NCBI GenBank assembly: GCA_022565795.1
Contig: JAIUMA010000038.1
Coordinates: 1 to 32,119 of the forward strand
Direction of reading: 5' to 3'
Length of the DNA stretch: 32,119 bases
From: Balneolia bacterium
GTDB lineage: Bacteria; Bacteroidota; Rhodothermia; Balneolales; Cyclonatronaceae
This document shows, piece after piece, positions 4,052 through 30,173 of the stretch. Every line of letters starts with the position of its first letter. Position 1 is the stretch's first letter. Both the position numbers and the translations under genes were made by a program. A model generated the notes under the pieces. That model saw nothing but the letters and a program-made list of their open reading frames with translations, was not told the origin of the DNA and did not search any database.

Positions 4052-6256
4052 ATGAAAACGTTTATAATCATACTCCTTGTTTCGCTTTTATGGATTTTTA
4101 GCGCCTGCGACTCACCTACACGCCCATTCAATAATACGAATGTAAATGATCCTCAGTCTGGACGCTTTGTACCAACCGAAACAGAGAATATACACCTGCA
4201 TGCAGATTCGACCGGTGTAATTACAATCACATGGTTCGAGACTGAAAGCGCAGCGGAAAAGATCATTATTGAAAAATCTCTTGGCGACTCACTTAGCTAC
4301 GTATCAATTGCCGAACTCAGTCCTGATGTAAGATCTTTTAAAGACTCCTCCTTAGTTGTGCAGAACGAAACATTCTACAGGGTTTCCGCATGGGTGAGAC
4401 CCTCAAAAGTGGATATACTGCTGGAAAAAGCAGAAGCAAAACTCGATATCGGCGAAATTTTTGACCTTGAGCTACAGCTCATTGATGACCAAACGAGTTT
4501 AGAGCTTAAATGGAAAAGTACATATCCATTTTTCACCCACTTTGATATCACATCCAATTACTATCTGAACGATCAACAGGAAAAGACAGTCCGTATCGAA
4601 GCTGACGGGCGGAACCACAGCTTTACAGATCATTTTAAAAGTATTGAGTTTAACGACAGAACCTACACTGTATCAGCTGTCATTAAGCATGATGACACCG
4701 AAGAGATTGTTTCTGAAATCGAAGACGTTTTCGACACAGCCTCTGTTTTCAAACCTCAAAGTGGCCGGATTATCATTCTTAATGAGACAGACTGGATCGT
4801 TACATGGGAGGGCGCTCCGTTTTTTGCGACAGGCGTAGAGGTAACCCGGGAGAAAAACGGGGAGGATGATCTTGTATTCAACTTGCCGGTCACAAGGACT
4901 TCACTTACTGATCGTGAGTTTGCGCGTCAGGCAAATCAGACTCAGGAGTTCAGGCGTTATTTGATTCGATACACGACGGGAGAATTTAAAAGCGAGCCCG
5001 CGCAGGTAAGTTCAGCAGTAACCGTAAGCAGGCCTGTAATTAACCTTGCAGGAAGCCAGCAGGATACGCCATCTTCATTTACCCTTAGCTGGAGCGTAAC
5101 TCCGTCGTCCAGAGCATTGGTGAACGAATTCGTGATTGAGCAAAACACAGCAGAGGACGGCCGGTCATTTGAAGAAATTGCGAGGGTCGACGGCAACGTA
5201 ACGGAGCTTATCATAGACAACCTGGAACCTGATGAGCAGATCGAATACCGCGTACGATCACGTACATCAGCATATAGTAACCCAACGACATTCGTCTACA
5301 GTAACGACTACCAACCCGACTTCACTCTGCCAACCGGGATGAGCTCCGTAACGCGAATGGAAACCAGTTCCGACAATCGGTATCTGGCAGCAGTCTCCCA
5401 TGAAGGGGGAGCCAGTAATCCAATTATCATTTACGATTTGGTTACGCAGCAACAAGTTTCCTCGATCAATATTCACCTCAGACAAATCAAAGACTTCGCC
5501 ATCAGCCCTGATGATGATTTCATATACTTTACGGTACCCTCCCAGAGCACTATATATCAGGCCGATTTTCCTTCAGGCAATAACATTGCAGCAATTATTG
5601 AAGACGCCAGTGTTTTCAATAATGGCGTTCACGGGTTAGCTATCAGCAGCGACGGATCGTTTCTCGTAGGCGTTGGAGGCAGCATTTTTGTTAAACGGTG
5701 GAATCTTAACACGTTCGAACTCGTGTTCACATACAACAACACCAGCGCCCCTTTCAACCCGGATAAAAAACCAGCCATTTCCCCCGATGGCAAATTTATA
5801 GCTGCAGGTGGCTCCAGACCCTTAATTTTTGATGCAGAAACCGGTGAAATTGTTGAGTTTTTATTTCCTATCCTATCAGACTTCAGAGACTTACAGTTCA
5901 GTGCTGACGGCACCTATGTTTCATTTGTCACTACTTCTTCAACAGGAACAGACGCGTTTATTTATTCAACGGCCAATTGGGAAGGTGTGCACACCTTACG
6001 CGATGCTTACAGAATCGCTTTTCATCCTCAAAATTCTGACATTCTGCTCTCGGGCGAGGCACGTAGCTTAATTTTCGACGCAGAGACTCTCACCATTACC
6101 GACTTAATTTCGGATGAAGAAGGCTTCGGATTTTCACCAGATCCGCGTCATGCGCTTTTATACATAGATGATGATACCGTGGCGCTGGTTGACGACGACA
6201 GTTCAATACAGATCTGGAAACGAAGTAACACTGAAGGCTGGAGGTTCATCAGGTAA
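4052..6256 (+). CDS. FN3-repeat and beta-propeller lipoprotein (cassette copy 1)
   Basis: A 734-residue predicted lipoprotein with lipobox FSAC (Cys19) followed by DSPTRPFNNTNVNDP. Four beta-sandwich repeats start with an L-x-W-like strand near residues 58, 150, 248 and 343 (ITITWFE, LELKWKS, WIVTWEG, FTLSWSV) and look FN3-like. From about 430 to the end, SxDG-type turns recur near 439, 485, 532, 577 and 617 (ISPDGKFIAAGG is the clearest), as in WD40/PD40 beta-propellers. It is clearly paralogous along its whole length to the minus-strand protein at 6419-8626 (shared CDSPxRPFNNTNxNDP, STYPFFTHF/TTYPFFTHF, DFPSGNNI). The likely role is extracytoplasmic protein or polysaccharide binding; no enzyme motif is seen. 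Confidence 0.8.
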   Translation: MKTFIIILLVSLLWIFSACDSPTRPFNNTNVNDPQSGRFVPTETENIHLHADSTGVITITWFETESAAEKIIIEKSLGDSLSYVSIAELSPDVRSFKDSSLVVQNETFYRVSAWVRPSKVDILLEKAEAKLDIGEIFDLELQLIDDQTSLELKWKSTYPFFTHFDITSNYYLNDQQEKTVRIEADGRNHSFTDHFKSIEFNDRTYTVSAVIKHDDTEEIVSEIEDVFDTASVFKPQSGRIIILNETDWIVTWEGAPFFATGVEVTREKNGEDDLVFNLPVTRTSLTDREFARQANQTQEFRRYLIRYTTGEFKSEPAQVSSAVTVSRPVINLAGSQQDTPSSFTLSWSVTPSSRALVNEFVIEQNTAEDGRSFEEIARVDGNVTELIIDNLEPDEQIEYRVRSRTSAYSNPTTFVYSNDYQPDFTLPTGMSSVTRMETSSDNRYLAAVSHEGGASNPIIIYDLVTQQQVSSINIHLRQIKDFAISPDDDFIYFTVPSQSTIYQADFPSGNNIAAIIEDASVFNNGVHGLAISSDGSFLVGVGGSIFVKRWNLNTFELVFTYNNTSAPFNPDKKPAISPDGKFIAAGGSRPLIFDAETGEIVEFLFPILSDFRDLQFSADGTYVSFVTTSSTGTDAFIYSTANWEGVHTLRDAYRIAFHPQNSDILLSGEARSLIFDAETLTITDLISDEEGFGFSPDPRHALLYIDDDTVALVDDDSSIQIWKRSNTEGWRFIR

Positions 6257-6418: not shown

Positions 6419-8626
6419 CTACTGAAGAAAAGTCCAGCCTTGCTGTGTGGTTTTCTGCCAGATATTAATCGCGGTATGATCTGAATTTGCCCCAGCCACC
6501 CTGTTATCGTCTAAATATAGATTCGACTGAAACCAGGCCAGACCAATACCGAGATTATTCGTATTCACAATTATATCGTCAACCCTCATTTCCAGCAAAT
6601 CATACGTAAAAGATCGTATGGTTCCCGCTACAACTAGCCGGGGCTCGGTAGGGTGAAAGCTAACTCTGTGTGCACCGACCAGCTCAGCAGTACGCTGCCA
6701 GTTGTTTGTCGAGTATACATAGGTTCTCGTATTCCAGGTGCCGAGTACATCAACATAGGCATAATATTGGCCGTCGTTACTAAAATGACCATCAGCAGTA
6801 TTCCGGGTTGTCGTAGACAGCGTGTGCATGAGCTGTCCATTAGAGGCGTCAAAAATATACTGTCCATATCCGGCATATGCACCATCTGGTGAAATAGATA
6901 ACTTACGAGCGGGGTAAATAGTAGTATCGCCGAAATAAGTGAGATACTCCTCCTGAAACGTCTGCAGGTTCCAGCGCTTTATAAAATCAAAGCCTGCGCC
7001 TATCATAAAAGAACCATCGCTGCTTATTCCGATTTTCCGTACCTGAGAGTTGTTGTTTCCTGCATTTGTAATCACCTGTTCAATATTATTTCCCGAGGGA
7101 AAATCTGCCCTGTAAATCACCCCTTGTGTTCTGGCGATAAAATAAATGTGCTCTTCATCAGGACTTAGCACAAAATCGGAAATCCGGTGCGAAGGTATGC
7201 TTATGCTCGCAACTGTTTCCCTGTTTACGATATCCTGTATCTGAATAGGGTTTCCATCAAGAGCATTGGAAGATACCAACACTATATACCGGTTATCGTT
7301 GGTGGTCTCCAGGGTGTTTATAAAGCTTCCGGCCTGTGTCTGAAATGTATAGTAGGGAGTATAAAAATTGGTGAATTTAAAGGTTTCGCCATTACTGTAT
7401 GCCGACGAAAGCGTGCGAACCCTGTACGTGAAAGACTGTTCCGCATTCGTATTGGTATCAACAAACTCCAGCACGTCGCCACTCACTACTCCTATTTGGG
7501 AGAACCCAGAGTTATTTCCCGATAAACTTCGCTCTATAATAAACTCTCTACTTAGAGTATTGCCCGGAGCAGCAATCTCCCAAGTAACTCTTAACGAATT
7601 CGGATCGCTTTGATTGGAAACGGACCGAGTTAACTGAGGAGCCTGAATGGTAAGCCCTCGGGTTAGCGACACCGTTTCAGAAGTGCTGTTTTCGGCAAGG
7701 AAACGAAGCTCATACTCCCGAATCTGTCCCGAGTTTGCCGGGGGCCGAATAAAAAAATCATCGAGATAGCTTATAGCTTCGGCTGGAAGGTCAATCACGA
7801 TATCGTTATGACCGTTTCTTACCCTGGTAAGCTCAATTCCGGTTACAAAAGACGGACTTTCATCCCATCTTACATCCCATTCCACTTCATCAAGAATAGA
7901 TACCCTGAATCGTTTAGGGCCAAATAATGACTTCGCATCGAAAGATGTGGATAGTTCGGAGATTTCCAGATGGGAGTCCTCATAATCAATAATGGCAGTA
8001 ACGGTGTACTCTCTTATTTCAAATTCCAAATCCGGCAGCGGCAGTTTATAGCTATGGCTGATACCATCTGCTTCAATACGGACCGTATTCTCACCATCTT
8101 CTGCAACGGTATAATCCGATGAAATTTCGAAATGCGTAAAGAACGGATAGGTAGTCTGCCAGGTAAGCAGCAGCATATTTTCCTCGCCCAGGTATTCGTT
8201 TTGCAGGTTGAACATCTCCCCTATATCGAGATTACCACTCTGCGAGGAGCTAATCTTTATGCCGTCATCGTCGGGCCTGCCTTTCCAGGACGTAAGCCTG
8301 TAGATTGTCTGAGGAAGGAATACCCTTGAGGAATCTACAAAGCGGTCCGTCGAAGGATCGAATTCCGCAATCATCACAAAATTCAGTGAATCACCTATTG
8401 ATTTTTCAAGAAGCAGATGGTCTGCAAATTCATCCTGCTCAGGCCACACGATGGTTACATTGCCTGTGGTATCGGCGGCAACAAACAGCTCTTCTCCTTC
8501 AGACGGCCGGAAATTGGGCGAAAGCGGATCGTTTGCGTTCGTGTTGTTAAAAGGTCTTGAAGGCGAGTCACATGCGGCCACAATCCCCGCAAGAACTATT
8601 AAAGCTAATACAGTATACGTTTTCAT
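6419..8626 (-). CDS. FN3-repeat and beta-propeller lipoprotein (cassette copy 2)
   Basis: A 735-residue paralogue of the plus-strand lipoprotein at 4052-6256, nearly equal in length. The lipobox is VAAC (Cys19), followed by DSPSRPFNNTNANDPLSP. The same order of FN3-like repeats (TIVWPEQ, LLTWQTT, WDVRWDE, RVTWEIA) precedes a C-terminal propeller with turns such as LSPDEEHIYF, ISSDGSFMIG and ISPDGAYAGY. It begins 8 bases after the stop of the PEGA-like gene upstream (8635-9648), so the two form an operon. The two copies are diverged enough that they are not a recent duplication. Likely an outer-membrane-anchored binding protein; ligand unknown. Confidence 0.8.
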   Translation of the reverse strand: MKTYTVLALIVLAGIVAACDSPSRPFNNTNANDPLSPNFRPSEGEELFVAADTTGNVTIVWPEQDEFADHLLLEKSIGDSLNFVMIAEFDPSTDRFVDSSRVFLPQTIYRLTSWKGRPDDDGIKISSSQSGNLDIGEMFNLQNEYLGEENMLLLTWQTTYPFFTHFEISSDYTVAEDGENTVRIEADGISHSYKLPLPDLEFEIREYTVTAIIDYEDSHLEISELSTSFDAKSLFGPKRFRVSILDEVEWDVRWDESPSFVTGIELTRVRNGHNDIVIDLPAEAISYLDDFFIRPPANSGQIREYELRFLAENSTSETVSLTRGLTIQAPQLTRSVSNQSDPNSLRVTWEIAAPGNTLSREFIIERSLSGNNSGFSQIGVVSGDVLEFVDTNTNAEQSFTYRVRTLSSAYSNGETFKFTNFYTPYYTFQTQAGSFINTLETTNDNRYIVLVSSNALDGNPIQIQDIVNRETVASISIPSHRISDFVLSPDEEHIYFIARTQGVIYRADFPSGNNIEQVITNAGNNNSQVRKIGISSDGSFMIGAGFDFIKRWNLQTFQEEYLTYFGDTTIYPARKLSISPDGAYAGYGQYIFDASNGQLMHTLSTTTRNTADGHFSNDGQYYAYVDVLGTWNTRTYVYSTNNWQRTAELVGAHRVSFHPTEPRLVVAGTIRSFTYDLLEMRVDDIIVNTNNLGIGLAWFQSNLYLDDNRVAGANSDHTAINIWQKTTQQGWTFLQ

Positions 8627-21617: not shown

Positions 21618-24188
21618 TTAGCTGGCAAGCGCAGCCGTGTCTATAATCAAACCTACTTTTCCATCGCCAAGAATGGCGCCGCCTGAGATGTAATCCATTT
21701 TGACGTTCATGTTTATGGATTTCCCTACAAGCTGCTGCTGACCGATTATTTCATCTACCAGCAGAGCATAAAGCTGATTATTATTTTTTATAACTAGCAA
21801 TGTTCCTCCCTCCAGGTCTTCCTGTGCTCCGCTAATCTCGAACATTCTGTGCAGTCGAAGTACCGGAACAGAATTGCCCCTGTATTTGACCTCCTCAGCG
21901 GAACCAAGTATTGTGAAAACCTCATCTTGTTTCACCCTGAAAGTCTTTTCAATATTTATTGTTGGTATAATAAACTTCTGAGTCCCGACGCTAACAAGCA
22001 TTCCGTCTGTAATTGCCAAAGTAAAAGGAAGCTCCAGAGATACTTTTGTTCCTTTTCCTTCATCCGACTCGACCTCTACCTTACCCTGTAGCTGGTCTAT
22101 AGATCTGCGAACAACATCCATGCCTACCCCCCTGCCTGACAACTCCGTCACTTTATCTACCGAAGATAGTCCCGGATGAAATATTAGCGCACATATCTCT
22201 GAGTCTGTAAGTTTTTGGTCTTCATTTACGAGCTTTTTATCTATGGCCTTTTGAAGCACTTTTTGCTTATTGATTCCCCTGCCGTCGTCTTCAATTTCAA
22301 TTACGACCTTACCGCCTTCCTGATAGGCTCTCAGCCAAATATTAGCTACAGCCGGCTTAGAGGTCCCTGAACGCTCATCCGGTGTTTCGACTCCGTGATC
22401 GATCGAGTTTCGGAGCATGTGTACGAGTGGCTCATTAATTATATCGACCATATTTCTGTCAATTTCTGTATCGTCTCCAAAGGTCGTAAGCTTTACGTTC
22501 TTTCCACCTTTTCTCGACAAATCACGAACAAGCCTGTTCATCTTCTGGAAAGTCGCCTTTAGGGGTACCATCCTGAGTGTTAGACTTGTGTCCTGTAGCT
22601 CACGCAGAATTTTTGAGGTGTGGTTGATTTTCTTCATCAACTCCGAGTCCTTGCCTACCGTCTGGTCCTGAGAAACTACAGAGTGGGCAATTACCAGTTC
22701 CCCAACCATATCAATCAGACGGTCTAATCTTCCGAGATTTACCCTGACCGTAGAATCCTGTTCGCTTTTTTCGACCTTAGGCTCTTCTTTACTCACGTCC
22801 GAGAAGCCGTTACCACCTATTTCGAGTATTTCAGGAATAGGAACACTTTCATCTGTCTCAGCTTGTTGCTCATGATCGGTTGGAGCAGACTCAGAACTGT
22901 ATTTCAGGACTGCCTCTTTCGGTTGTACCCCGTTTTCTGCTATGTCTTCAAGTATGTTGAACAAGCGCTTGTACTCGTCGGATCTCGGTATAATATCGCC
23001 CGCTGAAACAGTGCTGATTTTTTCCAGAAGCTTTTTAATTACATCGATGGAATCCAGACTAATATCGGCAGCAGCTCTGTCGAATTCGAGCTCTCCATCG
23101 CGCACATTACTCAATAACGTTTCCGCTAAATGGGTAAAGTCTGATACTGGGTCCAGCCCCATAAAAGCCGAAGTCCCTTTTATAGTGTGAAACGACCGAA
23201 ATATGGTATTGATGAGTTCCTGATCTCCCGGGCTGCTTTCCAGCTCGAGTAAGGCTGCTTCTGAAGCATCGATTAAGTCGCTACACTCGGTTATAAATTC
23301 ACCGATCATATCAAGATCCACCTCGGATGAGACGACAAATTCATTTACGTTTTCTGCCTCCTCCGGCAATTCACCGTTCTCTTCTACAACATTAAGAGAA
23401 GCTGTCTTAACAGCGCTTGACTCAACAGCGTCTTGGTCCGGAGCATCCCCCCAATTTACATCTTCCTGTGCCTGAATCGCATACTCTATTTTCTCAGAGA
23501 CTTTTAGCAACCACTCGTTATTTACTTCAGTGCCCCCGGTTATGGCCAGGTTGACTTCTGCTTTAACCTCACTTATAAACGAGGCCACTTTACCATTTGT
23601 GGAGTCGATGATGGCTTCAGCAAGCGGAACCAATGCTTCCAACTCCTCGGGCTGCGAATCATCTCCTATGGCCACTATGGCAAGTGCAAGATCATTAAGT
23701 GTTGCTGCGGGCGCTGGCGTCGCCTCTTGCTCTTCTGATGTTCCATCCTGCTCTGTATCGCTCTCTTGTTCAGACACAGACTCTGCCTCAGCTTTAGCAG
23801 AGGGTATCGCGTCCAAATCAACAACTTTATCTGCAGATTCACCACTACCGGAAATGGCTTTTTCCATAAGCTCACAAGATCGTTCGAAGTCTTCAACGGG
23901 AATATCACCATTCTTGAGCACGTACTCCCGAATGGTGTTAACCGAATGCATCGTTGCATTTTTAACGGTAATGAAAAACTCATCTTTCTCATACAGATGT
24001 ATCATCCCCTGCCAGGCGAGGTCCATAAGTCGTTTGAGCTGCACCCCTGATACATCCATATTACCGGATATCTCTTCAAAAGCTGCCCCAGCTACCATCA
24101 CCCCGTCACGATCATTTGGCCACACGTCGGCAAGTTCACGTATTACATCAGCAAGCTTATCGATATATTTCTCGTTGTCTTCGAACAT
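21618..24188 (-). CDS. cheA: chemotaxis histidine kinase CheA with a long N-terminal extension
   Basis: An 856-residue CheA. The P1 Hpt domain is at about 293-400 with phospho-acceptor His334 (FRSFHTIKGTSAFMG). A linker with no recognisable CheY-binding P2 domain follows; P3 dimerisation is at about 480-545 (VRVNLGRLDRLIDMVGELVI). The P4 kinase domain has N box HMLRNSIDHGVE, G1 EDDGRGIN and G2 GRGVGMDVVRR. The P5 CheW-like domain runs from about 720 to 856. Before P1 there are about 290 extra residues: a helical segment at 1-115, an acidic linker, and a second helical segment at 163-245. It autophosphorylates and passes phosphate to CheY-type receivers and CheB. A GGGAG ribosome site precedes the ATG. 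Confidence 0.96.
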   Translation of the reverse strand: MFEDNEKYIDKLADVIRELADVWPNDRDGVMVAGAAFEEISGNMDVSGVQLKRLMDLAWQGMIHLYEKDEFFITVKNATMHSVNTIREYVLKNGDIPVEDFERSCELMEKAISGSGESADKVVDLDAIPSAKAEAESVSEQESDTEQDGTSEEQEATPAPAATLNDLALAIVAIGDDSQPEELEALVPLAEAIIDSTNGKVASFISEVKAEVNLAITGGTEVNNEWLLKVSEKIEYAIQAQEDVNWGDAPDQDAVESSAVKTASLNVVEENGELPEEAENVNEFVVSSEVDLDMIGEFITECSDLIDASEAALLELESSPGDQELINTIFRSFHTIKGTSAFMGLDPVSDFTHLAETLLSNVRDGELEFDRAAADISLDSIDVIKKLLEKISTVSAGDIIPRSDEYKRLFNILEDIAENGVQPKEAVLKYSSESAPTDHEQQAETDESVPIPEILEIGGNGFSDVSKEEPKVEKSEQDSTVRVNLGRLDRLIDMVGELVIAHSVVSQDQTVGKDSELMKKINHTSKILRELQDTSLTLRMVPLKATFQKMNRLVRDLSRKGGKNVKLTTFGDDTEIDRNMVDIINEPLVHMLRNSIDHGVETPDERSGTSKPAVANIWLRAYQEGGKVVIEIEDDGRGINKQKVLQKAIDKKLVNEDQKLTDSEICALIFHPGLSSVDKVTELSGRGVGMDVVRRSIDQLQGKVEVESDEGKGTKVSLELPFTLAITDGMLVSVGTQKFIIPTINIEKTFRVKQDEVFTILGSAEEVKYRGNSVPVLRLHRMFEISGAQEDLEGGTLLVIKNNNQLYALLVDEIIGQQQLVGKSINMNVKMDYISGGAILGDGKVGLIIDTAALAS

Positions 24189-24205: not shown

Positions 24206-24700
24206 TTATCTTGATTCGCTCAGAGCCATATTTAACCAAAAAACACCGTTATTAGCCTCGAACTTCATTTTTTTTGTGGGTGGCTTATTGGGCATAAACA
24301 AGGTTAGATCACTGCCTCGCGTGGCTGTAGGCAATGACGATTGCCCTCGGAATCCGATTGTTTCGATATTAGCAGCTACTTCTCCCGCTAGTATATTTGA
24401 TATTTCACCAACCAAGTCGCCCATATCGTCACTCTCGAAAGGGAGCTCCATACCTACAAATACCTCCGATAGCGCAACGGCTGTCTCCTTTGGGAATGCC
24501 AGCATTAGCGTGAGCGTATGCTCGGGATTAAAAACCGCAATATTGCCAATCATGCCATTAAGAGGACCGCTTTGAGTTTCGCTTTCGTTGTATACTGGCG
24601 GCTCGCCAAGAATAGATTCGAATGTATTGATTACCGATTGCTTAACCAGGTCTACGATTTCATCCGGAATAGTACGCGTTGGTGTCTTGTTTTCAATCAT
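24206..24700 (-). CDS. cheX: CheX-like chemotaxis phosphatase (first copy)
   Basis: A 164-residue CheC/CheX/FliY-class protein. The catalytic helix DMGDLVGEISNILAGEVAAN holds the E-x2-N pair Glu99/Asn102. The surrounding pattern (alternating strands MIGNIAVF and TLTLMLAFP before, and DLTLFMP after) fits the CheX fold. It should dephosphorylate the CheY encoded immediately upstream (14-base gap); cheA begins 17 bases downstream. An AAGGGG ribosome site lies about 10 bases before the ATG. Alternative: a general CheC-type protein. Only one phosphatase motif is visible, favouring CheX. Confidence 0.85.
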   Translation of the reverse strand: MIENKTPTRTIPDEIVDLVKQSVINTFESILGEPPVYNESETQSGPLNGMIGNIAVFNPEHTLTLMLAFPKETAVALSEVFVGMELPFESDDMGDLVGEISNILAGEVAANIETIGFRGQSSLPTATRGSDLTLFMPNKPPTKKMKFEANNGVFWLNMALSESR

Positions 24701-24714
24701 TGGAACAGTCCCCT

Positions 24715-25164
24715 TTAGGATTTAAGTATATTGCTGAAAAAGCTTTTCTTTTCGGCTTTTTCTTTCCCGGTAATAAGGTTGCCGCTATCATCGAAGTAGC
24801 GTTTTATAGTTTTATGCATTTTATCTGCTGTAAATGGCTTTGTGAGATACTCATTAGCACCGCCCTCATTAAGCGCTATATCGACTTTACCCATCGACTT
24901 TTCGGCAGTTACCATAATAATTGGTATATGATCTGTATCTCCTCTTTCACGCAGTGCTTTAGCAAATTCCACACCGGTCATTTTGGGCATATTCCAATCC
25001 AAGAATATAATTTGAATATCGTCGGTGAACTGCTCTAATGCATCTTCACCGTTCATAGCCTCGACATACTCAAAATCAGCAATCATTAATTGATCGAGCG
25101 CGCGCTTTACTGCGCTCCTCATAATTTTTGAATCGTCGACCACAAGCGCTTTAATATTTGCCAT
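24715..25164 (-). CDS. cheY: chemotaxis response regulator CheY, first gene of the che operon
   Basis: A 149-residue receiver with Asp10/Asp11, phospho-acceptor Asp56 (IIFLDWNMPKMTGVEF), Thr86 and Lys109 (YLTKPFTADK). The DWNMP signature, including Trp58, is typical of CheY that binds the flagellar switch. It carries about 20 extra residues after the receiver (GKEKAEKKSFFSNILKS), which is unusual for CheY. It is the promoter-proximal gene, with a leader of roughly 180 bases from the sigma-28-like promoter. This is the best candidate for the true motor CheY among the receivers here. Confidence 0.93.
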   Translation of the reverse strand: MANIKALVVDDSKIMRSAVKRALDQLMIADFEYVEAMNGEDALEQFTDDIQIIFLDWNMPKMTGVEFAKALRERGDTDHIPIIMVTAEKSMGKVDIALNEGGANEYLTKPFTADKMHKTIKRYFDDSGNLITGKEKAEKKSFFSNILKS

Positions 25165-25585: not shown

Positions 25586-26329
25586 TCAGTTAACCAGCGG
25601 GAGCATTAAAAGGATACTCGCTTTTCCCCCATCTAGTTCACTGTAGCTAAGCGTACCCTTTAAAGCCAGGAGGGCTTTTGATTTGAATGAGATATCAGAA
25701 GCTTCAGACTCAGTATCAGAGCTATCTTTGTACCTGGTCGAAAATTTGTCTCTGAGCAAAAGATCACTTAGGTCAGATGCCGGCCTTTCGGGTCTGCTGA
25801 TTACAATTTGTATAACCCCATTAGAGCCAGAACGCGTGCAGTTTATTTGTACAACGCTTTCTTTTGCCGAATAGCGAGATATAGTAAGGACGATATTGTA
25901 TAGGAATAGCTTTAGCAGGCATATATCTGCTGTTACATGCATATTTTCTGATCCAACGGAAAATCCGGTGACCATTTTTTGCTTCTTTAGACTGAACACC
26001 TGCTCCGCTTTGGAACATACTTCCGTAAGCATCCACTGAAGCTGAATCTGCATGTCCGGCAATGAATCCTGATACAGATTACATTCAAAAGCGTTTTCGA
26101 GCTGTTGAACCAGTTTGCCTATGTGATCAACTCCGGAATCTATACTGTTTCTGTACCGCAGAGCCTTATCTATTTTCGGGTTTCCGGAAAAGGCAATTTG
26201 CATAAGTTCAAGATATCCGGATGTAGCGCTTAATGGTGACTGCACATCGTGAATAGACTGTAGAAGCAGGTCGCGCTGCAGGGCATATTTAAGCTTAAAA
26301 CGTTCGATTTCGGTCTGCATAATTTGCAT
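25586..26329 (-). CDS. degenerate histidine-kinase-like protein (pseudokinase or phosphotransfer protein)
   Basis: A 247-residue soluble protein shaped like a minimal HisKA-HATPase kinase. The H box is intact (QSIHDVQSPLSATSGYLELM, His27). The ATPase half is degraded: the N-box equivalent LFLYNIVLTISRYSA has Thr149 where the Mg-binding Asn is expected, the DxGxG G1 motif is replaced by ISRPERPASDL, and no glycine-rich G2 is visible. It therefore probably cannot bind ATP normally but may accept or relay phosphate, like Spo0B, or act as a scaffold. A sigma-28-like promoter 43 bases upstream places it in the motility regulon. It diverges from a receiver/hybrid-kinase pair. A second ATG lies three codons downstream. 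Confidence 0.75.
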   Translation of the reverse strand: MQIMQTEIERFKLKYALQRDLLLQSIHDVQSPLSATSGYLELMQIAFSGNPKIDKALRYRNSIDSGVDHIGKLVQQLENAFECNLYQDSLPDMQIQLQWMLTEVCSKAEQVFSLKKQKMVTGFSVGSENMHVTADICLLKLFLYNIVLTISRYSAKESVVQINCTRSGSNGVIQIVISRPERPASDLSDLLLRDKFSTRYKDSSDTESEASDISFKSKALLALKGTLSYSELDGGKASILLMLPLVN

Positions 26330-26733
26330 ATTAGGTAATTGAGCACCATTGAGTTACAGTACGAATAAAACCTATCGGCCAAATCCGAAAAATCTTAACG
26401 CGTGTCTCCGTAAAAAGAAGTTAAATGGCGGGTGTAAGATTCAGGAGAGATATTAAATACTACATTTGCTTTCCCGCATATTAACTGCTAATCAATGAGT
26501 TTACACCAAAATAGTATAAAATGCCCATGGAATGCATATATTTCGTTAAAGACTTTTCCTTAGAGCCGTATCCCGGTCTATTACTATGGATGTTTTTGCG
26601 GTGCACGGTTATTCCGCACTGAATGGGATAATGGCTAACCTCTCTTTATTAAGTGAGATAGCAAAATTTTGAAATTGTACAAAATCAATTCCTTAGAATA
26701 AACTTTTTACCTGGGAATGGGTTCCAGCTGCTG
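26330..26733. other. divergent intergenic region between the degenerate kinase and a receiver gene
   Basis: A 404-base AT-rich gap. Next to the minus-strand gene is a clear sigma-28-like promoter. On the plus strand side, only a poor match is seen (TTAAA near 26554, then GCCGTATC), so the promoter of the receiver/hybrid-kinase pair was not identified. No ORF of note. Confidence 0.45.
26372..26398 (-). promoter_or_regulatory. sigma-28-type promoter of the degenerate kinase gene
   Basis: On the minus strand, TTAAG (26398-26394), 14 bases, then GCCGATAG (26379-26372), seven of eight bases of the FliA -10. It ends 43 bases before the ATG at 26329. Spacing is identical to the other five copies. 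Confidence 0.7.
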
Positions 26734-27168
26734 ATGACAACCAACAAAACAATCTTTATAATTGATGATGAGCAGGATGATGCTTTTCTAACCAAAAGAG
26801 CTCTCCAAAAAAAATCAGCCTATCCTCTCGATATCCATATTTTCAGCTCAGGTGAAGACCTCCTGCGATATTTACAAGCCCAGCCGGATGATACAAAAGC
26901 AGCATCCGACTTAATAATTCTGGATATTAATATGCCGGTAATGAGTGGATTTGATGTCTTAAGGCATTTACGAGCTGATAGCCGGACTAAATTTACACCA
27001 GTGGTGATGCTTTCCTCCTCCTCAGAACAGATTGATATCCGTAAAAGCTACGAAGGCGGAGCGAACAGCTATATCCAAAAACCTGTAAATTACAGCCAAT
27101 TTAGCGATATAGCGGCTCTGGTAAATCAATATTGGCTACATATTAATCTAAGCCCGAAATTTCACTAA
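26734..27168 (+). CDS. single-domain response regulator (Rcp1-like)
   Basis: A 144-residue lone receiver. An acidic cluster DDEQDD (11-16), phospho-acceptor Asp64 (ILDINMPVMSGFDVL), Ser94-97 at the switch position and Lys116 (YIQKPVNY) are present. The DDEQDD and long beta3-alpha3 pattern resemble receivers that partner PAS-type kinases. It is 18 bases upstream of a hybrid kinase in the same reading frame, so they are almost certainly co-transcribed. Confidence 0.9.
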   Translation: MTTNKTIFIIDDEQDDAFLTKRALQKKSAYPLDIHIFSSGEDLLRYLQAQPDDTKAASDLIILDINMPVMSGFDVLRHLRADSRTKFTPVVMLSSSSEQIDIRKSYEGGANSYIQKPVNYSQFSDIAALVNQYWLHINLSPKFH

Positions 27169-27186
27169 ATACATTTTCTACCCATT

Positions 27187-29652
27187 TTGTCTGTAAAAAC
27201 CCGAATACTGATAATTGAAGATTCTTATGACGACAGGGTACTTCTAAAGTACCAGCTAAAGAAAGGAGGGCTTAATCCAGATTGTCATTTTATTGAAACC
27301 AGAGATGAGTTCGAGGAAGCGCTCAAATCAAATGAATGGGATGTAATAATCAGCGACTACAATCTTCCCGGGTTTGACGGCCTGACAGCCCTGAATATGC
27401 TTCGCGATTCAGGTTCAGATACGCCATTTATCCTGATTTCAGGTGCTGTAGGAGAACAGCTTGCTGTTGAAATGATGAAGTCTGGCGCAAACGACTACCT
27501 GATGAAAGACAATCTGGCTCGTTTGGTACCGGTCATCGATCGTGAGTTAAAGGAGGCCAGAAACAGGTTAAAGCAAAAAGAAGATGAAGCACAAAGACAA
27601 CGTCTTGAAACCATTGTGCGCCAAAGCATCAATGAGGTCTATATTTTCAATAGCACAACACTGAGGTTCGAGTACGCCAACAAGAGTGCCTTAAAAAATC
27701 TGGGCTACACACATGAAGAAATTTCCTCGCTCACACCTTTTTTTTTAAAAAAAGAATACAACAGCGAAAGCTTTTCCACCCTACTCGAACCACTTTTAAA
27801 CGGATCAAAAGAACAGATCCTTTTTCATACAACACATCAGCGGAAAGATGGATCTGAATACCCGGTAGAGGTGCAGCTACAAATTATTCGTGAAGAAAAG
27901 GAGACTTTCTATGCTGCAATTGTACTCGATCTTTCAAGCCGGAAAAGAGATGAAAACATCATTCAGAAACAAAAAGAGCTGGCCAGTAAACTAGTTCAGA
28001 TAAGCAAGCATAAGTCTGAATTTATTGCAAACGTGAGCCACGAGCTGCGTACACCTCTGAATTCTATACTCCTTCTTAGCAACCTGCTTGGGAAGAAGCT
28101 TAAGCTCGATTCAGAAGATAAAAAGGCGGAGTATGCCGATGAAATCCACAACTCCGCAGTAGGGCTTATGGAGCTTATCAACGAAATTCTGGATATCTCA
28201 AAAATCGAGGCCGGCGAAATGAGCTTCAAGATTTCTGAAGTAAGCGTTGAGGCCATTATAGATTCACAGATTAAATGCTTCAAACATGTCGCTGAAGATA
28301 AAGGACTCACACTTGATGTTGGTCATAGCACTTCAACAGGCACTATAATTAAAACCGATTCACTTCGCCTGCAGCAGATACTAAAGAACCTTCTTTCTAA
28401 TGCGATTAAGTTTACGGATGAAGGAACGGTAAACCTCACCGTGTACCATCCGGAACCCGGTGAAATAGCTGCCTTTCTGCCAAAAGAGCAAAACGGTATC
28501 TCGTTTACCGTTACAGACACAGGTATTGGCATTGGGGAAAAAGACCATTTGCAGGTTTTTGAGGCTTTTCATCAGGTTGATGGTTCTGCGGAGAGAAGGT
28601 TTAGCGGAACCGGTCTTGGTCTAACGATAAGTAAAGATATTGCCAATACGCTGGGGGGTACCATAAAGCTGCAAAGCGAACCAGGAAAAGGAAGCAGCTT
28701 CACACTTTACCTGCCGGCAGACAGCACCCCGTACGTAGAGGCAAAAATGGCCAGAGAGAAAAATGAGGCACTATCTCCTGAAATACCTGAAATCATGAGG
28801 GAATATGCATCACTAAGCAGGAAAAATGCTCGTCGGATCCAAAGAGACGACGGCAGGTTTCAGATATTACTGGTAGATGACAGCGAGGTCCACGGTGAGG
28901 CCCTTAAGGAGCTCCTGGATGACGACCGTAAAGTTTGCACCATGGCTCATACAGCCAAACAAGCATACAGCACAATAGAGCAAGGGCAAATAGATTTAGT
29001 GATACTGGATTTGGGTCTGCCGGATGCCGATGGCTTTGATGTGGTAAAACACATTCGCTCATCATACTCCAAAAGCGAGCTTCCGATAATTATTTACTCC
29101 GGACGTTCAATGCCCGATGGCCTCGACACGAAAACAGACGACATGCTGAATGCATTCATCACTAAGTCTAGCGGAAGTTTCCAAAAGGTAATGCAAACGG
29201 TAGATTTTTTTGTGAATCGTGCAAATTCCCATCAGGAAGAGTTGATTACCCCCCCGGAAAACGGCAGCACTAAAACCAAAACCATATTGATTGCCGATGA
29301 CGATAAACGGAATATCTTTTCGCTGCAAAAAGCGCTGGAAGGCTATAATGTAAAGATAGCGACTGCCGGTAATGGGCGTGAGGCTTTCGACTACGTAATG
29401 AGCGGCAAGCCGGCAGACCTCATCCTTATGGATATGATGATGCCCGTAATGAGTGGGTATGAAGCAACTGAGAAGATACGATCCCTGGAAAAGTGGAAAT
29501 CTCTTCCCATTGTTGCGGTGACAGCACGAGCTATGCCCGAAGATCGTGTCAAATGCTTTGAGGCCGGTGTTTCCGATTACATTAGCAAGCCAATAGACCT
29601 GGATATCTTAATAAAAACGATCTCCAGGTGGATTAAACTGTCCGAAAAATAG
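27187..29652 (+). CDS. hybrid histidine kinase, REC-PAS-HisKA-HATPase-REC-REC
   Basis: An 821-residue cytoplasmic hybrid kinase starting at TTG (27187). No ATG precedes the first receiver strand (TRILIIEDS), and the upstream frame is closed by the TAA of the previous gene; ATT at 27184 is the only near alternative. Domains: REC1 about 4-122 (Asp57 in IISDYNLPGFDG), PAS about 138-255, HisKA about 275-342 (His285 in NVSHELRTPLNS), HATPase_c about 390-512 (NLLSNAIKFT, TDTGIGIG, GTGLGLTIS), REC2 about 557-678 (Asp608 in LDLGLPDADG) and REC3 about 697-818 (Asp749 in LMDMMMPVMSG). REC1 at the N-terminus suggests that it receives phosphate from another protein, perhaps as part of a relay. Confidence 0.92.
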   Translation: MSVKTRILIIEDSYDDRVLLKYQLKKGGLNPDCHFIETRDEFEEALKSNEWDVIISDYNLPGFDGLTALNMLRDSGSDTPFILISGAVGEQLAVEMMKSGANDYLMKDNLARLVPVIDRELKEARNRLKQKEDEAQRQRLETIVRQSINEVYIFNSTTLRFEYANKSALKNLGYTHEEISSLTPFFLKKEYNSESFSTLLEPLLNGSKEQILFHTTHQRKDGSEYPVEVQLQIIREEKETFYAAIVLDLSSRKRDENIIQKQKELASKLVQISKHKSEFIANVSHELRTPLNSILLLSNLLGKKLKLDSEDKKAEYADEIHNSAVGLMELINEILDISKIEAGEMSFKISEVSVEAIIDSQIKCFKHVAEDKGLTLDVGHSTSTGTIIKTDSLRLQQILKNLLSNAIKFTDEGTVNLTVYHPEPGEIAAFLPKEQNGISFTVTDTGIGIGEKDHLQVFEAFHQVDGSAERRFSGTGLGLTISKDIANTLGGTIKLQSEPGKGSSFTLYLPADSTPYVEAKMAREKNEALSPEIPEIMREYASLSRKNARRIQRDDGRFQILLVDDSEVHGEALKELLDDDRKVCTMAHTAKQAYSTIEQGQIDLVILDLGLPDADGFDVVKHIRSSYSKSELPIIIYSGRSMPDGLDTKTDDMLNAFITKSSGSFQKVMQTVDFFVNRANSHQEELITPPENGSTKTKTILIADDDKRNIFSLQKALEGYNVKIATAGNGREAFDYVMSGKPADLILMDMMMPVMSGYEATEKIRSLEKWKSLPIVAVTARAMPEDRVKCFEAGVSDYISKPIDLDILIKTISRWIKLSEK

Positions 29653-29768: not shown

Positions 29769-30173
29769 CTATAAGATGAGTACGTAGCCCAGGGCCAGTA
29801 CCGAGCAGACCAGCGCTGCTACAGACAGGGAAACCGCAAGCTGAAATTTACGTCCCTCAAATTCCAGATCTGCCAGAATAGACATCACAAGAGGAAAATT
29901 CACGCTTAAGCCTTCAAACTTAAGTGAAGCAAAGAATGCAGCTCTGTTTCCGGCCTCATCTACGTAGCTGTACTTTTTGTTAAAATGATAATAGAGTCTG
30001 CCGAAGATCATATCCTCTTCAACCCCACAGTCTTTGGCTACTTGACCTATATCGATAGGTACACGTACGCGGGTAATCCTGTCCGGCTCCGTTCGGGCGT
30101 ACTCTTTAAAGTTTTTATGGTATCGTAAATAAATGGCCCTCAGGATTTCACGGTCTGATGGTATTTTCTTCAT
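29769..30173 (-). CDS. tail-anchored protein of unknown function in the flagellar regulon
   Basis: A 134-residue protein. Residues 1-105 are soluble and mostly helical (REILRAIYLRYHKNFKEY; IDIGQVAKDCGVEEDMIFGRLYYHFNKKY), with a layout reminiscent of a winged-helix domain; the helix-turn-helix reading of IGQVAKDCGVEEDMIFGRL is tentative. Residues 111-133 form a single C-terminal membrane helix (LAVSLSVAALVCSVLALGYVL), so it is probably tail-anchored with the domain in the cytoplasm. I do not recognise the family. It lies 118 bases downstream of flagellin, with its own sigma-28-like promoter in that gap. Confidence 0.75.
   Translation of the reverse strand: MKKIPSDREILRAIYLRYHKNFKEYARTEPDRITRVRVPIDIGQVAKDCGVEEDMIFGRLYYHFNKKYSYVDEAGNRAAFFASLKFEGLSVNFPLVMSILADLEFEGRKFQLAVSLSVAALVCSVLALGYVLIL

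Follow-up and report, generated by a model that had tools for sequence, protein, structure and literature searches.

Spo0B is a dimeric bundle of DHp hairpins with one histidine per chain, which passes phosphate between two receivers and leaves its ATPase domain unused (PMC3433190, PMC5231405). ChpT, a phosphotransferase with the shape of a kinase, is fed by the receiver of a hybrid kinase and binds no ATP (PMC3433190). PhyT, of the general stress response of Sphingomonas, transfers phosphate between two receivers in vitro although its ATPase domain is degenerate, and its authors suggest that it evolved from a kinase (PMC5898713). Pseudokinases of the DivL type have had their histidine replaced and have kept the ATP boxes (PMC4211667).

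Here we compare with these systems a gene found in a stretch of 32,119 nucleotides from a Balneolia bacterium of the order Balneolales, analysed as a whole and called the window below. The protein and its two domains are placed as follows.

25586..26329, minus strand: kinase-derived, ATPase-dead protein of 247 aa, a proposed dimeric histidine phosphotransferase (open reading frame, Pfam, model, tree and alignment)
26075..26287, minus strand: DHp hairpin, residues about 15-85 (model, alignment and entropy)
25589..26062, minus strand: degenerate CA (ATPase-like) domain, residues about 90-247 (model, fold matches and alignment)

The initial annotation had described this product as shaped like a histidine kinase that keeps the phospho-acceptor box and lacks the ATP-binding motifs, and the alignments confirmed both parts of the description. 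His27 (codon 26249-26251) stands in the context SIHDVQSPL and is followed at H+1 by Asp28, a residue of the kinase type. Thr149 takes the place of the N-box asparagine (NIVLTISRYS, where intact relatives have NLISNSIKYT). At G1 the sequence is VISRPERP where DNGxGIP would be expected, so that no DxGxG is present, and at G2 it is ESEASDISF where SSGLGLYI would be expected, with the G2 glycines gone. Pfam scores of the protein are below the cut-offs for both HisKA (19.9 bits against 26.9) and HATPase_c (14.7 bits against 26.4); among the hallmarks of an active kinase of this type, only the H-box histidine is found. The target is thus a protein of histidine-kinase-like shape which has His27 and no ATP motifs.

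The fold was predicted with AlphaFold2 from ten sequences (the target and nine orthologues), giving a model of moderate confidence (pLDDT 69, pTM 0.57) with a DHp hairpin made of helices 2-47 and 53-85 and, after it, a CA-like alpha/beta domain; the model of an orthologue is similar (pLDDT 73), and the hairpin is predicted in single-chain models. VIA-align groups the CA-like part with kinase catalytic domains, the best solved match being ThkA (Z 16.6, 2.6 Å over 145 residues; Z 18.1 for the orthologue model). DivL (Z 15.9) and RetS (Z 15.5) are among the structural matches of the target, and Spo0B and ChpT are absent among the fold matches listed for the target and the orthologue. A profile search of the PDB found HisKA kinases, SrrB and HK853 among them, and neither Spo0B nor ChpT. 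At E <= 1 the target has no Pfam match to PF14689, the Spo0B-type helical domain, or to PF10090, the C-terminal domain of ChpT (a weak match of 0.05 occurs in one orthologue only), and PF01627, the monomeric Hpt domain, matches CheA and three other places in the genome, none of them at the target. Membership of the Spo0B or ChpT families was therefore rejected, on the Pfam results and on the kinases found in the PDB.

As with Spo0B, the target is proposed to pass phosphate between two receivers with no use of the ATPase domain, but it belongs to another protein family by sequence, would act in chemotaxis and not in sporulation, and has surviving close relatives that are active as well as ATPase-less forms. 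As with ChpT, its gene context and co-occurrence (described below) fit a relay fed by a hybrid kinase, whereas ChpT has its own Pfam domain (PF10090), a separate origin and a role in the cell cycle through CckA-ChpT-CtrA. PhyT is also derived from a histidine kinase and also has a degenerate ATPase domain; it is, however, of the HisKA_2 type with an HRxxN motif, membrane-anchored and devoted to the stress response, while the target is of the HisKA type and its model contains no membrane segment. The target has the reverse pattern of DivL, with the histidine kept and the ATP boxes lost. We conclude that it is probably a kinase-derived dimeric phosphotransferase which works like Spo0B, ChpT or PhyT and arose independently of them.

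The family was searched in 129 genomes of Balneolales, many of them metagenome-assembled, with Gracilimonas mengyeensis among the named matches. A profile of 17 full-length members separates the members (E <= 1e-76) from the next relatives (1e-61 and weaker), and the relatives just beyond this cut are intact kinases or DHp-only forms. In a maximum-likelihood tree the degenerate copies, the DHp-only forms and a che-less pair fall on one side of a branch with support 100/99, and this split holds (99/93) in a tree restricted to the DHp columns, from which the sister row of the target was removed. The pairing of the target with L027 is unsure because both are long branches, its membership of the clade not being in doubt. 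All 27 members of the degenerate clade on the tree have the histidine and none has the N-box asparagine, and 23 of the 27 have lost the acid at H+1, replaced by Asn, Lys or Gln. The 18 intact relatives retain in every case the histidine, the H+1 acid, the asparagine, the D/G/G of G1 and both G2 glycines. According to published work on HisKA proteins, the H+1 acid is required only for autokinase activity (PMC3510030). The reduction goes further in genus g7, where eight genomes have the DHp hairpin alone (130-142 aa), with the ATPase domain absent and the locus unchanged.

The initial annotation had named loss of His27 among orthologues, or orthologues with intact N, G1 and G2 boxes in the same place, as findings that would speak against it. 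The histidine is invariant, and no intact orthologue lies inside the clade; intact che-linked kinases do exist in family f3 (G103 and G104, located before an MCP gene and cheY-cheX-cheA), placed by the tree outside the degenerate clade, and they look like the ancestral state, although an intact kinase in a che-linked place is also the kind of finding that the initial annotation had listed against itself. Other intact relatives adjoin flagellin genes (families f5, f1 and others). These flagellin- or che-linked kinases (L037, L047, G008 and others) are direct sequence relatives of the target and differ from it in having all ATP motifs and no adjoining kinase gene. Mostly they share an adjacent gene of about 150 aa. 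The genes of this small family (alignment A5) run convergently to the kinase or pseudokinase gene, in most cases between it and cheY, for example at L058:6897-7358, L065:8581-9045, L074:7699-8148 and L067:9602-10072; the family has no Pfam match, and its N-terminal and C-terminal motifs are conserved. A remnant of it was sought in the window and in the genome of the window, and none was found.

Selection on the two halves of the protein is unequal. In the degenerate set the mean identity is 49% for the DHp and 29% for the CA part, against 41% and 45%, respectively, in the intact set: constraint has moved onto the DHp half in the degenerate clade. For the family pairs in which dS could be computed, dN/dS over the whole gene is 0.09-0.21, and one pair has a DHp dN of about 0 at a dS of 0.79. 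The loss of the motifs is therefore more than chance, since it is common to a supported clade and the genes are under purifying selection. Within helix 1, the receiver-docking face (H, H+4, +7, +8, +11, +12 and +15) has an entropy of 0.07 bits, against 0.96 for the other positions of the helix. We take these positions to be the ones that meet the receiver in HK853-type complexes, an assignment for which the mutant in the title of PDB entry 4jas gives partial confirmation.

The gene is located upstream of a full che cluster (CheY, CheX, CheA, CheR, CheD, CheY-type receivers, a second CheX and CheB), beyond which MCP and CheW genes follow further along. On its other side, a receiver gene and a hybrid kinase gene are divergently transcribed, with flagellin beyond them. 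The features of interest are these.

24715..25164, minus strand: CheY-type receiver, the best-conserved neighbour on the 3' side and proposed exchange partner (Pfam and synteny)
24206..24700, minus strand: CheX phosphatase with an ExxN motif, one of two in the cluster (domains and motif)
21618..24188, minus strand: CheA, with Hpt, dimerisation, HATPase and CheW domains, which serves as the cluster's ordinary kinase (domains)
26734..27168, plus strand: single-domain receiver, divergently transcribed (Pfam)
27187..29652, plus strand: hybrid kinase REC-PAS-HisKA-HATPase-REC-REC, motifs intact, the proposed phosphoryl source (Pfam)
28864..29217, plus strand: REC2 of the hybrid kinase, the receiver kept in every genome with the degenerate gene (alignment and profile search)
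26372..26397, minus strand (read 26397-26372): sigma-28-like promoter TAAG-N14-GCCGATAG, 43 nt before the ATG, found in the window only

The last of these had been taken in the initial annotation as part of a motility regulon, and here the claim stands for the window and fails for the family. Sites of this kind are also present ahead of fliC, cheY, cheW, the MCP gene and ORF 29769, and the window contains three exact sites where none is expected, and 11 with at most one mismatch where 1.3 are expected. Among orthologues, only 3 of 23 upstream regions have a site at that tolerance, with a background of about 3%, and a family-wide sigma-28 promoter was rejected; the promoter is a trait of the genome of the window and not of the family. 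ORF 29769-30173 (minus strand) encodes a conserved protein of 134 aa with a C-terminal hydrophobic stretch, its own sigma-28-like site and no Pfam or NCBIfam match; counterparts with 60-72% identity occur in several loci of Balneolales that contain che or flagellin genes. Elsewhere in the window, 4052-6256 (plus strand) and 6419-8626 (minus strand) encode two similar proteins of about 735 aa with lipoprotein-like N-termini, and this pair in opposite orientation looks like an inverted duplication.

The position of the gene is conserved across genera. Of the che-linked copies of the clade with readable flanks, nearly all are located beside cheY-cheX-cheA, and all 24 have on the 5' side a divergent histidine kinase with a fused or nearby receiver, against none of the 13 intact loci with a 5' flank (Fisher p 3e-10, a value that overstates the strength because the genomes are related and not independent). 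In most cases this neighbour is a hybrid that ends in a C-terminal receiver. In four genomes it is a kinase with no receiver, receiver genes being nearby, and the hybrid itself is present slightly further along (G086, G089 and G071) or on another contig (G073). The aligned neighbour kinases have intact H, N, G1 and G2 boxes, and the receivers of the hybrids among them have the phospho-acceptor Asp and the Lys and are orthologous to REC2 of the window. A split kinase, with a neighbour devoid of its own histidine, was hinted at by a regular expression and rejected when the alignment showed intact H boxes in all neighbours.

Searched through the 129 genomes, a profile of the hybrid receiver, which was built from neighbours of the family and is thus biased toward finding the receiver there, reached E <= 1e-34 in 26 genomes, namely all 25 with the degenerate gene and G010, a metagenome-assembled genome whose contig ends at the syntenic spot where the degenerate gene would be. 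The next matches (4e-26 and 2e-22) are in larger proteins, and no other genome has a comparable receiver; the p value of this co-occurrence with the degenerate gene, 8e-26, likewise overstates the strength, given the bias of the profile and the relatedness of the genomes. Seven genomes without a che marker, G023, G027 and G030 of g7 and G031, G036, G038 and G039 of g8, have neither the degenerate gene nor the hybrid. Genome G021 (L132:8560-9184) has a che cluster and the small partner gene but neither the DHp gene nor the hybrid kinase; it has an intact kinase at another place, next to flagellins. Three che-less genomes of genus g24 (G094, G095 and G098) have a fast-evolving degenerate copy (LHQMVSP) beside a PhoBR-like pair, at L144:6560-7366, L143:4057-4881 and L145:5371-6195, with a second unusual HisKA protein adjoining; the link with chemotaxis is therefore not universal, and part of the family does something else.

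Four observations form the basis for proposing a relay: the ATP motifs are lost, the histidine and its docking face are kept, the genes are linked, and the hybrid receiver co-occurs with the target gene. From these we consider it probable that the target is a former HisKA kinase which no longer binds ATP and now serves as a dimeric phosphotransferase, from REC2 of the hybrid through His27 to a che receiver. Judging from fold and homology, two DHp hairpins would assemble into a four-helix bundle carrying His27. The divergent hybrid kinase (27187-29652) would autophosphorylate and transfer the phosphate to its own REC2, from which it would pass to His27 of the target and then to a chemotaxis receiver, most likely CheY 24715-25164. 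Such a relay would provide the chemotaxis circuit with a second phosphoryl input, independent of CheA. Phosphorelays of this type are able to run backwards, and the target could also drain CheY-P. We infer dimerisation, phosphotransfer, its direction and the identity of the CheY partner. The initial annotation had suggested a Spo0B-like phosphotransfer linking the che receivers to the hybrid: the comparative evidence (histidine in 27/27, asparagine in 0/27, receiver co-occurrence) favours this reading, though the target is not a member of the Spo0B or ChpT families by the Pfam tests.

As for the receiving end, three features make CheY 24715 the leading candidate: in 21 of 23 informative loci its gene is the next conserved one, no receiver of the cluster is better conserved (67-77% identity), and it has a tyrosine at the output switch. 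This residue, at position K-3, is Tyr in all 21 readable orthologues of the 23, whereas in the aligned REC2 domains of the hybrids it is Val, Ile or Phe and never Tyr. In CckA-Rec, a relay receiver, the K-3 residue is variable (PMC9981736). Deduced from linkage, CheY 24715 is most likely the exchange partner of the target.

The most serious alternative, which we nevertheless regard as unlikely, is a pseudokinase sensor or scaffold in the manner of DivL or RetS, which would bind a receiver or the DHp of the hybrid and modulate it without carrying phosphate. Both proteins are among the structural matches, DivL has a kinase fold that now serves to read DivK-P (PMC4211667), and the kinase linkage is also compatible with control through a heterodimer. 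But DivL has a tyrosine in place of the histidine, while the clade keeps it in all 27 members, even those with no ATPase domain, and the near-invariant face of helix 1 is precisely the one on which receivers dock around the histidine. A pure decoy or scaffold, the other possibility raised in the initial annotation, is less likely for the same reason, as the histidine and the docking face are the most conserved parts. A phosphatase dedicated to CheY-P and derived from the phosphatase activity of HisKA proteins appears improbable: a HisKA DHp can dephosphorylate receivers with no need of the H+1 acid (PMC3510030), but the Thr/Asn at H+4 required for that activity is Ser in 26 of 27 clade members, and the cluster already has two CheX phosphatases. 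There is even less to recommend the view that the protein is still active as a kinase through an unusual ATP site, for which the predicted CA-like fold and the retained Asp28 would speak; the N, G1 and G2 boxes are all gone, and the DHp part stands alone at the same locus in related genomes. A decaying pseudogene or unneeded remnant, suggested by the fast evolution of the ATPase half, is hardly credible: dN/dS is well below 1, the DHp is almost invariant, the family copies examined have open frames, and the position is conserved across genera.

The dimeric phosphotransferase thus remains our preferred reading, and the publications searched on Balneolaceae chemotaxis and on phosphotransferases consisting of a DHp alone contained no direct precedent for it, although this does not prove that none exists. 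Phosphotransferases such as Spo0B and ChpT are regarded as dead kinases, and to our knowledge surviving intermediates are rare. Because the family matches neither of them, it represents an independent case, located in chemotaxis, in which intermediate and end states are preserved. At roughly even odds, the Balneolales present a series from an active, flagellum-linked kinase through ATP-dead forms to an ATPase-less DHp phosphotransferase, with the hybrid recruited as a chemotaxis input independent of CheA. Since active, degenerate and ATPase-less forms occur in related genomes with clear synteny, it can be tested when kinase activity disappeared and what took its place. Should the relay feed CheY, the hybrid kinase could steer swimming without the CheA array.
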